Source of the DNA: Asanoa hainanensis
GTDB lineage: Bacteria > Actinomycetota > Actinomycetes > Mycobacteriales > Micromonosporaceae
Assembly: GCF_900188485.1 (NCBI RefSeq)
Contig: NZ_FZPH01000015.1
Coordinates: forward strand, 62,001-126,000
DNA: 64,000 bases
Direction of reading: 5' to 3'
Shown: positions 7,623 to 33,457 of the stretch, piece by piece
How the letters are laid out: each line of letters starts with the position of its first letter
Position numbering within the stretch: the stretch's first letter is position 1
Program-made: the position numbers and the translations under genes
Notes under the pieces: generated by a model
Seen by the model: the letters and a program-made list of their open reading frames with translations, nothing else
Told to the model about the DNA's origin: nothing
Databases searched by the model: none

Positions 7623-9532
7623 GTGTCCGGAAAGGACTGACCTCGCTGGTCGGGGTCAGCCTGCTGCTGGCGGTCCTCGCCCACTTCAACACCTCGCTCG
7701 GCGTCGCACCTTATCTGCTGGTGCTCGCGACCTCCGTGCTGTTCTGGGTGATCCAGGCGACGAGCTGGAACATCCTGTCCGGGTACGCCGGCTACTTCAG
7801 CTTCGGGCAGGCCGCGTACGTCGGTATCGGCGCGTACGCGGTGGCGGTGCTGACGGGCCGGCACGGGGTGAGCTACCCGGTGTCGATCGTCGTCGGCGGC
7901 CTGCTCGGGGCGCTGCTCGCGCTGATCACCGGGGCGATCGCGTTCCGGCTCGGCTCGCTGCGCGGCGAGATCTTCGCACTGCTGACCCTGGCGGTGCCGT
8001 TCATCCTGGCCGCGTTCGTGCGGATCAACCGCGACATCGACGGCGGGCTCGGCACGACGCTGCCGCTGCCGGCGTTCCCGGACTGGATCGGCGACTTCCA
8101 GCACCTGATCTTCCTGCTGATGCTCGCGGCGGCGACGCTGGCCGTCGGCACGGCGCTCGCGGTGCAGCGCTCCCGGCTCGGCCGCGGCCTGAGCGCGATC
8201 CACGACAACGAGGACGCCGCCGAGGTGCTCGGCGTGCCGACGTTCCGCTACAAGATGATCGCCATCGTGCTCAGCGGCGCGCTCGGCGGGCTCGGCGGCG
8301 CGCTGCTCGCCGTACGCAACGGCGCCGTGCAGCCCGAGCTCGTGTTCACCCTGACCGTGCCGCTGTTCGTCATCGTGATGGCGGTGCTCGGCGGCCGCCG
8401 GCACTGGGCGGGCCCGGTGGTCGGGGCGGCGTTCGTCACCGTGCTCCAGGACGAGCTGGCCGCGCAGAAGCTCGACCAGTGGGGCAACATCATCCTCGGC
8501 GGCGTGCTGGTGGTCTTCGTGGTCGCCGCGCCGGACGGGTTGTTCGGTCGCCTGCGGGCCCGGCCGTGGCTGACGGTCGGCGTATTCGTGCCAGTTTTGG
8601 CCGGACTGGTCCTCAGTGGGCAGTACACCGAGCTGGACGCGCTGCTTTATGCCATGGTGGCCGCTATCGTCGTTGCCGTGGTGGTCGACCGCTTGCGGCC
8701 GGTCGCCGCGTCCCACCCCGTTCCGTCCCGCACCACTGCGGCCGGCACCCCGCCGGCCGTCCGGACCGCGCCGCCGCCGTTGTCGGCTCCCCAGCCGGAT
8801 TCCGGTCGCGACCTGGTCGCGGTCGCCGGTCTAATCCGTGACTTCGGCGGCGTGCGCGCCCTCGACGACGTCTCGTTGTCGGTGGGGCAGGGTGAGATCG
8901 TGGGCCTGGTCGGGCCCAACGGGTCCGGCAAGACCACGTTGGTCAACCTGCTCTCCGGTGCGCTGCCACCGAGTGCGGGCACGATCGCGATCGACGGGCG
9001 CGCCACGGTCGGGCTGGCGCCGCACAAGGTGGCGCACACCGGCGTCGCCCGCACGTACCAGATCCCCAAGCCCTTCGCCTCGATGACCGTGCTGGACAAC
9101 GTGGCCATGGCCGTCATGTTCGGCCGCACCGGCGCCTCGCTCCCGGCGGCCCGGCGGGCGGCGGCGGACCACCTCGCCACCGTCCGGCTGGAGCACCTGG
9201 CCGGCCAGCTGCCGGCGGCCCTCAACCTGCACCAGCGCCAGCTCCTGGAGATGGCCCGGGCGATCGCCGCGGAACCGGTCGTGCTGCTGCTCGACGAGGC
9301 GCTCGCCGGCCTGAACCCGGCCGAGATCGACGACGCGGTGGCGGTGATCCGGCGCATCCACGAAGGCGGCATCTCGATCATCATCGTCGAGCACCTGCTG
9401 CGCGTGCTCAACCAGCTCGCCACCCGCATCGTCGTCCTCGACCGGGGTGTGCTCATCGCCGACGGCGAGCCGGCCACCGTGCTCAACGACCCCGCGGTCG
9501 TCCGGGCCTACCTGGGGAGGCAGCGTGCTTGA
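7619..9532 (+). CDS. Fused Liv-type permease and ATPase (LivM-LivG)
   Basis: 637 residues. Residues 1 to about 340 are a LivM permease (SWNILSGYAGYFSFGQAA, then GGRRHWAGPVVGAAF) with multiple membrane helices. A Pro/Ala-rich linker (about 360-400) follows. A complete LivG ATPase occupies about 400-637: Walker A GPNGSGKTTL, a LivG-type TYQIPKPF segment, the signature region LHQRQLLEMARAIA, Walker B VLLLDEALAGLNP and H-loop VEHLL. LivM and LivG are separate proteins in E. coli; fusions occur in several bacteria. The signature replaces the usual LSGGQ with NLHQRQ, as is common in LivG. It overlaps livH by 4 nt and livF by 8 nt. Confidence 0.9.
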   Translation: MSVRKGLTSLVGVSLLLAVLAHFNTSLGVAPYLLVLATSVLFWVIQATSWNILSGYAGYFSFGQAAYVGIGAYAVAVLTGRHGVSYPVSIVVGGLLGALLALITGAIAFRLGSLRGEIFALLTLAVPFILAAFVRINRDIDGGLGTTLPLPAFPDWIGDFQHLIFLLMLAAATLAVGTALAVQRSRLGRGLSAIHDNEDAAEVLGVPTFRYKMIAIVLSGALGGLGGALLAVRNGAVQPELVFTLTVPLFVIVMAVLGGRRHWAGPVVGAAFVTVLQDELAAQKLDQWGNIILGGVLVVFVVAAPDGLFGRLRARPWLTVGVFVPVLAGLVLSGQYTELDALLYAMVAAIVVAVVVDRLRPVAASHPVPSRTTAAGTPPAVRTAPPPLSAPQPDSGRDLVAVAGLIRDFGGVRALDDVSLSVGQGEIVGLVGPNGSGKTTLVNLLSGALPPSAGTIAIDGRATVGLAPHKVAHTGVARTYQIPKPFASMTVLDNVAMAVMFGRTGASLPAARRAAADHLATVRLEHLAGQLPAALNLHQRQLLEMARAIAAEPVVLLLDEALAGLNPAEIDDAVAVIRRIHEGGISIIIVEHLLRVLNQLATRIVVLDRGVLIADGEPATVLNDPAVVRAYLGRQRA

Positions 9533-23423: not shown

Positions 23424-23560
23424 GGTAGGTCATCCTGCCAGCGCGGCCCGCCCGCGCGTGCGGTGTCCGCCGTCACGGGTGACCAGCGACTCATCCGTCG
23501 GGCGTCGGACATCGACGTGGCTGCGCCGGCACGGTTCAATCAGGTGGCGAAGGAGGCATT

Positions 23561-23914
23561 GTGGAGGGTCTGGAACTGATCATCGCGGCCCTGGCCGCCG
23601 GAGCCACGGCGGGTGCCAGCGACGTCGCGGGCGCGGCGGTCCGGGACGCGTACACGGCGCTGCGCCGGCTCCTGGGGCGCAAAGCGCCCGAAGCGGACCT
23701 GGACGCGGTGGACACGGAGCTCGCGCACGAGCTGGAGCGCAGCGGCGCCGCCGACGATCCGGAGATCATCGAGGCGGCCCGGCAGGTGCTCGCATCCGCC
23801 GAGGGCGCGCGCATGCGCATCGGATCGATCGAGATCAACGATTCGACCGGCGTCATGATCGGCGACCACGGCACCATGACGCTGCACATCGGCGACCACC
23901 CCAAGAAGGCTTAG
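23561..23914 (+). CDS. Small RHIM/amyloid-motif protein
   Basis: 117 residues, GTG start, AAGGAGG 4 nt upstream. Residues 1-38 form a helix (LELIIAALAAGATAGASDVA, then AVRDAYTALRRLL) typical of an actinobacterial family annotated as RIP-homotypic-interaction-motif proteins. An acidic helical region (45-85) follows. The C-terminal motif at 93-110 reads DSTGVMIGDHGTMTLHI, matching the V-x-[IV]-G-[DN] core of RHIM-like amyloid sequences. Such motifs template cross-beta assembly and relay a signal to a partner with a like motif. The convergent neighbour has similar motifs and overlaps by 4 nt. Family recognised from memory; signalling role inferred. Confidence 0.72.
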   Translation: MEGLELIIAALAAGATAGASDVAGAAVRDAYTALRRLLGRKAPEADLDAVDTELAHELERSGAADDPEIIEAARQVLASAEGARMRIGSIEINDSTGVMIGDHGTMTLHIGDHPKKA

Positions 23915-25320
23915 CTCACGCGCGGATCCGCGATGCGGATGCGGGTGCGGGCGGAGGCGGTCGGGTTGCGGCCGATGCCGACACCGGCGCCGTGTACGAC
24001 GGTCAGGCGGGCTCCCGACTGGCGCACCTGGGGGCGGTTGCCCACCGAGGCCTGGCGCGCCACGTCGGCCGTGGAGACGAGGTCGCCCACGTCGAGGTCG
24101 CGCAGCACCCGCTCGACCGTGTGCGGCAGCCGCTCCCGCGCGGCCTGCGCCTCGGCCGTGTCGCCGCGGCTGAGCGCCAGGTCGTCGCGCAGCGCCGCGT
24201 CGGCGAGCAGGGCCGCCAGGTTGACGCGGCAGCCCTCGATCGTGTGCCGGCGGGCGACTTCCATCGTGATGTTGTCGCCGACCGCTACGCCGCTGCTGCT
24301 CCAGATGTTGGTCCAGAAGTCGATGGCCAGGGCGTTGGACGAGACGGACGTGCTGGTGCCGGTCACCGTGCCGGGCCGCAGCGCGGTGCCCGACCAGCCG
24401 AAGAGCGGACCCTCCGGCTCCATCTTCAACAGCTCCGCCATCTCGACGACGGGCTCGGCGACCTCGCACTGGTGGATCACCGTGACCGTGCTGTCGTCGC
24501 CCCGCACCACGCCGACGGAGTCCCGCACGGTGACGGACTCGACCGGGCGCTTGCCGAACCGGCCATCGACCGTGCCGTCGGCCGCCGGCGCGACCGCCAC
24601 CGCGGCCCGGTGCCGCTCCACCACGCCTTCCAGGTGCGCGAGCGCCTCCCGCAGCTGCGCGGGCGTCGCCTCCCGCAGATCCCGGACGTGCGGCGCGGAG
24701 CCGAGGGCTTCGCTCAGGAGCACGTCGAGCGCCCGCAGGACCTCGCGCGGATCCTCGCCGCGCAGCGCCGCCAGCTCGTCGCGCAGGTCGGCCGACGCGA
24801 CGAACTCCGGGAGTCGGGCGGCCGCGCGCACCAGGTCGTCGGCCGCCTCCTGGATCTTCATCAGCGCGGCCCGCTCGCGCACCGCCAGCTGCGCGTCCCA
24901 CTCGGCGGCGGCCTTGATCGCGGCTTCCAGCTTCGCGGTCTGGCTCAGCTGGGCATCGATCAACGACTCGAAGGACCGCAACGCCCCGTCGGTGACGCCC
25001 CGATCGGCCTCGGCCCGGTCCGCCCGGCGCAGCGCCTCTTCCAGCGCCCGCGTCGCGACGTCGGCGCGCTCCTGGGCGCGGACGGCGCGCTGCTCGGCCG
25101 AAGCCCCCGCCTCCTTGAGCGCGGCGACCTCGGCCCGCAGCAGCTCGGACACGGGGGTCCGCGGCCGCGGCGCCCCCTCGGACGCCGGCGCCGCGGGGCG
25201 CCTCCGACCCAGGAACCGCAGCAGGTCGTCGACCGACCGCGCCGGCTCAGCCTTCGGCACCTCCCGCGAAGGCGCGGGCGAAGCCGACCGAACCTCGCGG
25301 TGCCTCTCGAACTCGCGCAC
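23911..25320 (-). CDS. Coiled-coil protein with repeated RHIM-like motifs
   Basis: 469 residues, GTG start. Residues 1-55 are basic and Pro-rich. A long coiled coil (about 57-165) and a helical region to 240 follow. Three G-V-x-x-G segments appear next: 267-283 (DSVGVVRGDDSTVTVIH), 342-355 (SSGVAVGDNITMEV) and, weaker, 444-456 (GAGVGIGRNPTAS). The first two align gap-free with the motif of the convergent 117-residue protein. No nuclease, protease, TIR or membrane domain was recognised. It may be a scaffold or effector assembled through amyloid-like contacts. No clear ribosome-binding site. Not assigned to a named family. Confidence 0.7.
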   Translation of the reverse strand: MREFERHREVRSASPAPSREVPKAEPARSVDDLLRFLGRRRPAAPASEGAPRPRTPVSELLRAEVAALKEAGASAEQRAVRAQERADVATRALEEALRRADRAEADRGVTDGALRSFESLIDAQLSQTAKLEAAIKAAAEWDAQLAVRERAALMKIQEAADDLVRAAARLPEFVASADLRDELAALRGEDPREVLRALDVLLSEALGSAPHVRDLREATPAQLREALAHLEGVVERHRAAVAVAPAADGTVDGRFGKRPVESVTVRDSVGVVRGDDSTVTVIHQCEVAEPVVEMAELLKMEPEGPLFGWSGTALRPGTVTGTSTSVSSNALAIDFWTNIWSSSGVAVGDNITMEVARRHTIEGCRVNLAALLADAALRDDLALSRGDTAEAQAARERLPHTVERVLRDLDVGDLVSTADVARQASVGNRPQVRQSGARLTVVHGAGVGIGRNPTASARTRIRIADPRVS

Positions 25321-25381
25321 TCATCACCCACTCAAACGCGCCACCGTCTCATGTCGAGGGTAGCGCCACGGGCTCCCGGAG

Positions 25382-26629
25382 CTAGCGCAGCGAGTGGAAG
25401 GTCGCGCGGACGTCTTCGGAGAGCAGTTGCGGCTGCTCCCACGCGGCGAAGTGGCCGCCCCGGTCGTGTCGCACGTAGGTGACGAGGTTCGGGTACGCCT
25501 GCTCCGCCCAGCTGCGCGGAACACGGTAGATCTCGTCGGGGAAGATGCTCACCCCGACCGGCACCCGCACGCCCTTGGTGGCGAAGAACGGGAGCTTGCT
25601 CTCCCAGTACAGCCGCAACGAGGAGACCCCGGTGTTGGTCAGCCAGAAGAGCGTGATGTTGTCCACGATGTCCTGGCGGGTGAGGTCGCTGGGCCGCTCC
25701 AGCCGGTCCTCCAGGACCTGCTGCACCAGGCCGGGCTGGCCGGTCCCGTCGCCGTGGTCGAGCATGAACGCGGCGAGGTCCAGCGGCGAGTCCGCGAGGC
25801 CGTACATCGTCTGCGGACGCGTCCCCGCGATCAGCCCGTACGCCACGTGCGTGCCGAAGAAGCCGAGCAGCTGGTCGTACGTGTCCTGCTCCTCGGGCGA
25901 GAGACCGTCCGGCGCGGGCGAGCCGGCGAAGGACGAGGCGAACAGCTTTGGCGGCACCGCGCCGGGCATGTTGGTGTGGATGCCGACCAGTCCCTGCGGC
26001 GGCGGTTCGGCGACCATCGGGTCGGCGCGGCCGCCCGCCAGCGCGTCGACCACGATCGCGCCCCAGTCGCCACCCTGCGCGGCGAACTGCGTGTAGCCGA
26101 GCCGACCCATCAGCTCGACGTACGCCTTGCCGATGCGCACCGGGTCCCAGCCGGCCTCGGTCGGCTTGCCGGAGAACCCGTACCCGGGCATCGACGGGAT
26201 CACGACGTGGAAGGCGTCCGACGCGTCACCGCCGTACGCCGTCGGGTCCGTCAGCGGGCCGATGAGCTTCAGCTGTTCGATGACCGATCCCGGCCAGCCG
26301 TGGCAGACGACGATCGGGAGGGCGTTCTCGTGCTTCGAGCGGACGTGGATGAAGTGGATGTCCAGCCCGTCGATCTCCGTGACGAAGTTGGGCAGGGCGT
26401 TCAGCCGCTCCTCGCACTGCCGCCAGTCGTAGTCGGCCTCCCAGTAACGGGCGAGGTCCCGCATCAGCGCGAGCGGCACGCCCTGCGAGTCGTCGTCGAC
26501 GGTCTCCTTCTCGGGCCAGCGCATGGCCCCGATGCGGGCGCGCAGATCCTCGAGGTCCGCGTCGGCGAACCCGATCTCGAACGGCCTGATTTCCGCGGTC
26601 TGCGATCGCGCTTGGGTCTTGACAGCCAC
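25382..26629 (-). CDS. Epoxide hydrolase (alpha/beta hydrolase fold)
   Basis: 415 residues, GTG start with GGGGAGA about 6-8 nt before it. The N-terminal EHN domain (IRPFEIGFADADLEDLRARI, MRDLARYWEADYDWRQCEERL) is diagnostic of microsomal-type epoxide hydrolases. The core has oxyanion HGWPGSV, nucleophile Asp in QGGDWGAIV and catalytic His in RGGHFAAWEQP. It opens epoxides to diols in the cytosol. Substrate unknown. Confidence 0.9.
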   Translation of the reverse strand: MAVKTQARSQTAEIRPFEIGFADADLEDLRARIGAMRWPEKETVDDDSQGVPLALMRDLARYWEADYDWRQCEERLNALPNFVTEIDGLDIHFIHVRSKHENALPIVVCHGWPGSVIEQLKLIGPLTDPTAYGGDASDAFHVVIPSMPGYGFSGKPTEAGWDPVRIGKAYVELMGRLGYTQFAAQGGDWGAIVVDALAGGRADPMVAEPPPQGLVGIHTNMPGAVPPKLFASSFAGSPAPDGLSPEEQDTYDQLLGFFGTHVAYGLIAGTRPQTMYGLADSPLDLAAFMLDHGDGTGQPGLVQQVLEDRLERPSDLTRQDIVDNITLFWLTNTGVSSLRLYWESKLPFFATKGVRVPVGVSIFPDEIYRVPRSWAEQAYPNLVTYVRHDRGGHFAAWEQPQLLSEDVRATFHSLR

Positions 26630-26786
26630 AGGACTCTCCCCACCTGCCGATGGATCTCCTTCGAGATCGGCGGGTAGGCGCCGACCTCCCGTCGCGGACA
26701 CCTGGAACGTCCCGCGCTCGTGCGGCAGATCGGCAGGGGCACCCAGGCCCACGTGTGTCGAGGGTAGGACTCGCCCTCCGCAGATC

Positions 26787-26821
26787 GGGGCAATACGAAC
26801 AATCCCGGGCGGTTTTGCCCC
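26787..26821 (-). terminator. Possible terminator after metH
   Basis: GGGGCAA (26787-26793) and TTGCCCC (26815-26821) form an exact 7-bp inverted repeat with a long 21-nt loop, 25 nt past the metH stop on the leftward strand. The long loop makes this a weak candidate. Confidence 0.25.
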
Positions 26822-26846
26822 AAGTGCGGCGTCTGTACAGCAGGCG

Positions 26847-30443
<3,597 letters not shown>

Positions 30444-30451
30444 ACCCACCA

Positions 30452-30469
30452 CCTCCGAATGAACGGAGG
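30452..30469 (-). promoter_or_regulatory. Shine-Dalgarno-sequestering hairpin of metH
   Basis: On the leftward strand CCTCCG (30469-30464), loop TTCATT, and CGGAGG (30457-30452) make a perfect 6-bp stem that hides the metH ribosome-binding site. Bases 30467-30469 of the masking arm also belong to the riboswitch pseudoknot, so the two structures exclude each other. Confidence 0.6.
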
Positions 30470-30540
30470 CGACCTTGGGGCGTTCCCCGGACGAGCGTGG
30501 CGGGGCGTGGTGCGGGCCCCGTTGCAGCGCCTCTCGTCTC
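30464..30540 (-). promoter_or_regulatory. S-adenosylhomocysteine (SAH) riboswitch before metH
   Basis: The leftward leader has the SAH-riboswitch core AGGCGCTGCAAC followed by CCACGCTCGTCC. Pairings: P1 GACGAG (30538-30533) with CTCGTC (30495-30490); P2 CGGGGC (30521-30516) with GCCCCG (30506-30501); P4 GGGG/CCCC around 30488-30477; pseudoknot AGGCG (30532-30528) with CGCCT (30471-30467). SAH riboswitches are known to turn on ahcY, metH and metF genes. Here ligand-stabilised pseudoknotting would free the ribosome-binding site. Consensus recalled from memory. Confidence 0.75.
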
Positions 30541-30557
30541 GGACCGCTAACGTTACC

Positions 30558-33457
<2,900 letters not shown>

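Follow-up and report, generated by a model that had tools for sequence, protein, structure and literature searches.

In the bacterial signalling amyloids described in excerpts of PMC7889193, a NOD-like receptor (NLR) is paired with an effector, mostly Bell and less frequently CHAT or TIR; the same 2021 review raises the question of whether amyloid signalling in bacteria also exists outside NLR pathways. The question arises for two convergent genes in a stretch of 64,000 nucleotides from Asanoa hainanensis (contig NZ_FZPH01000015.1, positions 62,001 to 126,000; hereafter the window), which encode proteins of 117 and 469 residues sharing an RHIM-like motif. Sequence comparisons make it reasonably probable that the pair represents a variant of Bell/BASS3 amyloid signalling that operates without an NLR. 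The motif is shared and conserved, the two genes adjoin repeatedly, Bell tails fit the motifs of their own partners better than those of others, and no NLR-like open reading frame (ORF) lies nearby; Bell function, amyloid templating and cell death would follow by analogy with described relatives.

The gene pair

The small gene (23561-23914(+)) begins with a GTG codon at 23561, preceded by the ribosome-binding site AAGGAGG (23550-23556(+), read directly in the sequence), and the large gene occupies 23911-25320(-). The stop codons overlap (TAG at 23912-23914 and TAA at 23913-23911, with 4 bp common to both genes), so that the pair stands tail to tail. G+C content at codon positions 1/2/3 is 0.75/0.49/0.91 in the small gene and 0.79/0.53/0.95 in the large one; both look coding, and the codon-position values of the long opposite ORF 23933-25363(+) (0.54/0.78/0.94) do not support it. 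The initial annotation had described convergent neighbours sharing an RHIM-like motif, and both parts of that description are borne out by the coding character of the ORFs and by motif scores beyond chance.

The small protein

Of the 354 genomes of the family, 89 contain a homologue of the 117-residue protein. The first 81 loci yielded 82 such ORFs, of which 46 carry an RHIM-type tail under the stricter tail pattern (consensus about VDxRxAKGVQVGDHNTQxNTF), 28 carry an APVTF-type tail and 8 match neither pattern, one of these (L049) being an RHIM variant. The sister tails share the pattern of the Frankia peptide VDLRDAKGVQVGDGNVQINRF (residues 103-123 of ORT49035.1), an effector-side BASS3 RHIM-like motif that is reported to aggregate and bind Congo Red (PMC8086366, in excerpt). 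A position-specific scoring matrix (PSSM) of 23 columns was built from 39 Bell tails of other loci, excluding the window, L044, L067 and L068; it scores 39.6 at residues 89-111 of the small protein (SIEINDSTGVMIGDHGTMTLHIG, 23825-23893(+)). A Bell-tail profile run against the whole genome (8.64 Mb, 99.97% complete) matched this tail at E 4.8e-6, the sole match at E<=10.

The AlphaFold model of the small protein, of low confidence (mean predicted local distance difference test, pLDDT, 53.5), places helices at residues 4-17, 21-39, 47-61 and 67-82 and, after them, three short tail strands. The putative helical domain (residues 1-84, 23561-23812(+)) opens with a hydrophobic helix, the best 19-residue Kyte-Doolittle window being 1.53 at residue 6. 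In the literature, Bell is a small bundle of predicted helices, one of them hydrophobic, for which membrane targeting and death are hypothesised (excerpts of PMC7889193 and PMC8086366). The small protein, with its C-terminal BASS3/RHIM-like motif, fits a Bell-type effector, an assignment made from published descriptions and the tail.

The earlier view that the small protein is of no known type is thus abandoned in favour of a Bell-like protein with a putative membrane-targeting death domain. Therefore the system appears as a variant of a described one and not, as had been supposed, as one not yet described. The C-terminal motif had been read as closing the protein, but LHI is followed by seven further residues, GDHPKKA.

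The large protein and its motif array

The 469-residue protein gave no credible match to a Pfam, NCBIfam or PADLOC family; PLU-1 (E 0.27) and KAAG1 (E 0.003, from one member) were rejected as not credible. Homologues of its C-terminal half were found in 10 of the 354 family genomes, and an eleventh candidate, G265 (E 2.1e-4, one stop), was dropped because the ORFs there belong to unrelated genes. The named hosts are Catellatospora coxensis, Actinoplanes subtropicus and Paractinoplanes bogorensis, all of which we take to be Micromonosporaceae.

An alignment of six homologues (A1) showed a variable N-terminus and a conserved C-terminal array, ordered as segment 1, segment 2, a helical stretch and segment 3. 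The variable part includes a predicted long helix or coiled coil (residues about 57-168, 24817-25152(-); low-confidence AlphaFold helices at 57-71 and 75-168), and a further predicted helical region (residues about 177-236, 24613-24792(-)) precedes the array. Segment 1 covers residues 262-284 (SVTVRDSVGVVRGDDSTVTVIHQ, 24469-24537(-); A1 consensus DSxGVxxGxxNxxxVxHxCxVExPVIE), segment 2 residues 336-358 (WTNIWSSSGVAVGDNITMEVARR, 24247-24315(-); consensus SSGVxxGxxN) and the weak third copy residues 438-460 (RLTVVHGAGVGIGRNPTASARTR, 23941-24009(-); consensus LTIRHGAGVAVGWD). Three motif glycines (G274, G348 and G450) do not vary among the six sequences; the motif is conserved in homologues of both proteins. 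Equally invariant are H283 within segment 1 and C285 directly after it, together with C364 and H443; these four residues hint at a metal or redox site. The motifs that the initial annotation placed at residues 267-283 and 342-355 were recovered where it had put them, as was its weaker copy at 444-456.

The motif in the array is supported by several comparisons. The three segments are the three best PSSM sites in the large protein, and the score of segment 1 (14.0) is the highest among the 162 window ORFs of at least 150 residues, the next being 6.6. The probability that the maximum of a shuffled sequence reaches the score is 0.001, 0.036 and 0.102 for segments 1, 2 and 3, respectively, so that segment 3 is not significant by itself. 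The same three segments come first in five of the six large homologues, and in the remaining one, G074, no site reaches significance. In profile-profile comparison, run one pair at a time, the Bell tails match segment 2 at 96% and segment 1 at 94%, and segments 1 and 2 match each other at 87%; the match of the tails to segment 3 is weak (11%). The ungapped PSSM fails on the L044 Bell tail, which is shorter by one residue.

Comparison with the PDB points to segment 2 as the most animal-like of the three. A profile of all six intact rows of this segment returned seven matches at E<=10, all seven being RIPK1 or RIPK3 RHIM constructs (best 1.2e-5). This profile was built because an earlier one had taken the three most RHIM-like rows; the three-row version also ranked RIPK1 and RIPK3 first, some of the lower matches being unrelated, and its exact reversal gave one unrelated match (E 1.5). 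Weaker signals came from the Bell-tail profile (RIPK3 alone, E 0.14-0.21), from segment 2 of G084 as a single sequence (RIPK1/RIPK3 at E 0.2-0.53, mixed with unrelated matches) and from the whole-array profile A3 (RIPK3/RIPK1 at E 0.47-0.76 only, plus two unrelated entries).

Linkage and cognate fit

The large gene adjoins a Bell gene in 4 of the 10 genomes that carry it, in differing arrangements. The genes are convergent in the window, tandem with overlapping ORFs in G018 (L044), tandem with an ATGA overlap in G073 (L068) and divergent in G084 (L067). With the window omitted, adjacency is 3 of 9, with a probability of about 5e-8 under a rough model that assumes a Bell density of 1.4 per 9 Mb. 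Five of the six unpaired copies are decayed or broken; G001 is split across two frames (L036:about 7952-8882(-)), G074 has degraded segments 2-3, G024 and G027 have lost motif glycines and have a truncated segment 3, and G014 is a fragment. The remaining unpaired copy (G072) is intact, with three sites in one ORF. All three sites are intact in 4 of 4 paired and in 1 of 6 unpaired copies (Fisher p 0.048). The conserved adjacency that had been suggested as a check is thus found in part of the genomes and missing from the others.

The fit of cognate motifs to each other favoured the pairing. Within the large-protein family of the window (family 1) the true pairing of tails and partner motifs was the best of all 24 (p 0.041), and in a second family, described below, five pairs gave p 0.027; G157, near-identical to G293, was omitted from the test. 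The value over all nine pairs (p 0.0002) is inflated because two families are mixed, and the within-family values are the fair ones.

Partners of Bell in sister loci

Neighbours within 2.5 kb were surveyed for 55 Bell homologues with a loose RHIM-like tail, from sampled loci (best matches first, plus second-family loci) and omitting L131 and two short membrane-type ORFs in L125 and L130. In 13 a coding-like ORF combined the motif with Walker A, in 19 a motif-bearing ORF lacked Walker A and in 6 a Walker A ORF lacked the motif. The other 17 had neither, which is an upper bound; the partner counts are lower bounds because the coding filter loses partners, as with the ORF beside the L049 Bell and with L193, a second-family pair that the filter misfiled under neither. 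Among ten chosen partners run against Pfam, five matched NB-ARC, NACHT or AAA_16, all five bearing motif and Walker A with the motif at the N-terminus; three more matched NPHP3_N (one below cut-off) and the L054 and L041 partners matched nothing. The sister loci therefore include classic Bell/NLR pairs by these matches, and several loci, that of the window pair among them, are exceptions. Within 2.5 kb of Bell in the window, L044, L067 or L068, no coding-like ORF longer than 250 residues carried a Walker A. Together with the lack of a recognised nucleoside triphosphatase (NTPase) family in the large protein, this agrees with the earlier statement that no NLR ATPase is present.

One of the exceptions resembles the window pair. 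In L041 (G012) a Bell gene is accompanied by a small ORF that encodes a hydrophobic stretch and by a 548-residue ORF (L041:8642-10288) with three RHIM-like copies, whose product matches the window array collinearly in hhalign (probability 60%, E 8.4e-5). Relatives of this protein occur in 21 of the 354 genomes (loci include L190-L199, L206 and L207), and the 20 ORFs recovered from them showed no Walker A. At least one motif lies above threshold in 13 loci, most of whose members carry two or three RHIM-like copies; 8 loci have none (among them L209, where no ORF was recovered). Bell neighbours were present at 6 of the 13 motif-bearing and at 0 of the 8 motif-less loci (Fisher p 0.046), counts that include the near-identical G157 and G293 and the ascertained G012. 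Thus the L041 type shares repeated RHIM-like copies, the absence of a visible Walker A and Bell adjacency (6 of 21 genomes) with the window family, but its N-terminus is different, G-x-Q-x-G cores are common in it and the H/C residues were not seen by eye in L041. It appears to be a distantly similar second family that repeats the layout of the window.

Proposed mechanism and alternatives

In the mechanism that we propose, the Bell effector would be a small bundle of helices, the first of them hydrophobic, and would stay inactive as long as its RHIM-like tail is unconverted. The 469-residue protein would be the upstream sensor or adaptor, standing in for the NLR of the described Bell/BASS pairs. 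Its coiled-coil N-terminus may take up a cue and multimerise, which would gather the RHIM-like segments of the C-terminal array; the gathered segments would nucleate a cross-beta assembly into which the Bell tail is recruited and templated. Insertion of the Bell domain into the membrane would then lead to death of the cell or hyphal compartment. The large protein would act on Bell as an activator, although sequence alone is compatible with an antidote as well. More tentatively, and with somewhat more doubt than confidence, the pair may belong to a class of bacterial non-NLR, ZBP1-like tandem-RHIM receptors that fire Bell, comprising at least two scaffold families (window and L041); the repeats may stack intramolecularly into a short beta-solenoid, which would serve as a preformed seed for templating the Bell tail.

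A number of observations weigh against this proposal. For the large protein, a sample of 394 genomes from across the class yielded the window and nothing else, and a scan of a contig collection returned three loci, all already known and none beyond its own family. The RHIM core of metazoans is (I/V)-Q-(I/V/L)-G, and the cores of the window are VMIG (Bell), VVRG, VAVG and VGIG, the glutamine being absent in VMIG, VVRG and VAVG. Neither segment 2 of the window as a single sequence nor segments 1 and 3 matched an RHIM in the PDB, and the genome search with the Bell-tail profile missed the segments of the large protein at E<=10. The large gene has no adjacent Bell in 6 of 10 genomes; adjacency in the window, where the pair originates, and in G012 are ascertained cases, and shared ancestry of the neighbours may feed the cognate fit. 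Moreover, all three segments lie in an ordered beta-rich C-terminal region of the AlphaFold model, built on 4 sequences (pLDDT blocks of 71-88 for residues 241-469 except 301-340, and below 60 in the N-terminal part), each with a three-strand pattern (262-287, 335-361 and 438-463), and may therefore be structural. A rigid globular fold had been named in advance as an observation that would speak against an amyloid motif, and this much of it is seen. H283, C285 and H443 are retained in G024 and G027 despite the lost motif glycines, so that the region has some role beyond the motif. The array could accordingly be an ordinary binding domain and not an amyloid, made of three similar beta-beta-beta units, perhaps stacked as a solenoid or bound to metal through H283, C285, C364 and H443. 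This alternative is rather unlikely, given that the six-row profile of segment 2 matches RHIM amyloid constructs only, that segments 1 and 2 match the Bell tails and that cognate motifs fit. The model, from so few sequences, is compatible with a stacked solenoid-like array as well as with a plain folded domain, and the beta region is barely tested because the VIA-align rows reached the helical part only.

The other alternatives concern the role of the large protein. As an antidote or decoy its array would sequester the Bell tail and keep the effector harmless, death following upon loss of the large protein. A two-gene pair with tail-to-tail overlap and no recognised sensor domain suits such a role, as does the decay of five of the six unpaired copies, expected of an antidote without its toxin. 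Toxin and antidote genes of toxin-antitoxin modules occur together. Here the family 1 partner stands beside only 4 of 55 RHIM-tail Bells, six of the ten large genes lack a Bell neighbour, up to 17 of the 55 Bells have neither a motif nor a Walker A neighbour within 2.5 kb, and the motif-bearing partners in sister loci are often NLR-like, that is, receptors; we consider the antidote unlikely. That the true receptor is an NLR encoded at another locus of the genome, the large protein being only an accessory, is improbable. The Bell-tail profile found an NLR-like partner in G001 at E 1.2e-7 but the one in G003 only at 0.72, and since it misses the segments of the large protein, it could also overlook an NLR motif that has diverged as far. 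Within the reach of this profile, however, no second motif was found at E<=10 in the nearly complete genome, and the window holds just two coding-like Walker A ORFs longer than 250 residues, 7-10 kb away, with P-loops that look ABC-type. Two unrelated genes brought together by chance and sharing a short glycine-rich pattern would agree with the shortness of the motif and with the large genes without a Bell neighbour, but adjacency in three further genomes with differing gene order, the scores of the PSSM, the PDB matches of the segment 2 profile and the cognate fit make this very improbable, and pure chance was rejected on these grounds.

Relation to known systems

The proposed NLR-independent pair shares with the Bell/BASS3 NLR signalosome (described in PMC7889193 and PMC8086366) a small, predicted helical protein with a C-terminal RHIM-like motif and an adjacent, larger, motif-bearing partner. 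It differs in that neither an NTPase family nor Walker A was recognised in this partner, in that its motif is repeated and in the C-terminal half where that of the signalosome is single and N-terminal, and in the varying gene order of its family. Fungal HELLP/PNT1 likewise combines an effector tail and a partner with an RHIM-related amyloid motif with a membrane-targeting helical executioner, but there the partner is an NLR of the NB-ARC/TPR type, and its motif is N-terminal (excerpts of PMC7889193 and PMC7885112). In animal cells the RHIM serves to set off necroptosis, and in the PDB the profile of segment 2 matches only the RHIM constructs of RIPK1 and RIPK3. The closest working analogy is ZBP1, a non-NLR sensor with two RHIMs (PMC9499459, in excerpt), and the pair resembles the logic of ZBP1 feeding an MLKL-like executioner. 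No kinase or Z-nucleic-acid domain was recognised in the window protein, which differs in this respect, and in the missing core glutamine, from RIPK1, RIPK3 and ZBP1. The likeness to the mammalian RHIM may reflect homology or convergence. Among titles and abstract openings, which do not cover the founding paper (Dyrka 2020) and give a weak negative, none pointed clearly to a Bell partner other than an NLR.

The pair and the L041-type family offer a small and concrete test case of two proteins without a recognised NTPase and with a motif near the animal RHIM. If the proposal is true, the animal layout leading from a multi-RHIM sensor to a helical membrane killer has a bacterial counterpart, and a class of tandem-RHIM receptors would answer the question on NLR-independent bacterial signalling amyloids as put in excerpts of PMC7889193.

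Additional observations

In 28 of the 82 Bell ORFs (e.g. L040, L042, L086, L087, L096, L098, L103 and L105) the tail is NYGAVGEFHAPVTFHQGPPVPPAPPAA-like, often beside Walker A proteins, and is possibly a different signalling motif. Several Bell partners have other layouts. The NLR-like partner at L095:3104-4975(-) has an RHIM-like N-terminus, NB-ARC and, at its end, a DnaJ C-terminal domain (PF01556, E 7e-30), a layout shared, as judged by eye, by L100:3238-5058(-). Short proteins adjoining the Bell gene at L125:4646-4927(-) and L130:5439-5828(+) show hydrophobic stretches by eye and end in GVQIGDHNTQHN. L054:7874-8689(-), beside Bell, encodes 271 residues with an N-terminal RHIM-like motif and a possible membrane segment, and has no Pfam family. 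The partners in L084, L085, L101, L120, L128, L136 and L137 have an N-terminal motif without Walker A and look like inactive STAND proteins with membrane segments; two of them were run against Pfam and gave a weak NPHP3_N match.

The surroundings of the pair were compared with the sister genome G003, which is 84-91% identical in DNA around the site. The alignment stops at window position 23502, directly upstream of the small gene, and picks up again at 32458 in inverted order; the pair therefore sits in a stretch that varies between sisters, and window positions 23503-32457 are absent from the matching place in G003.

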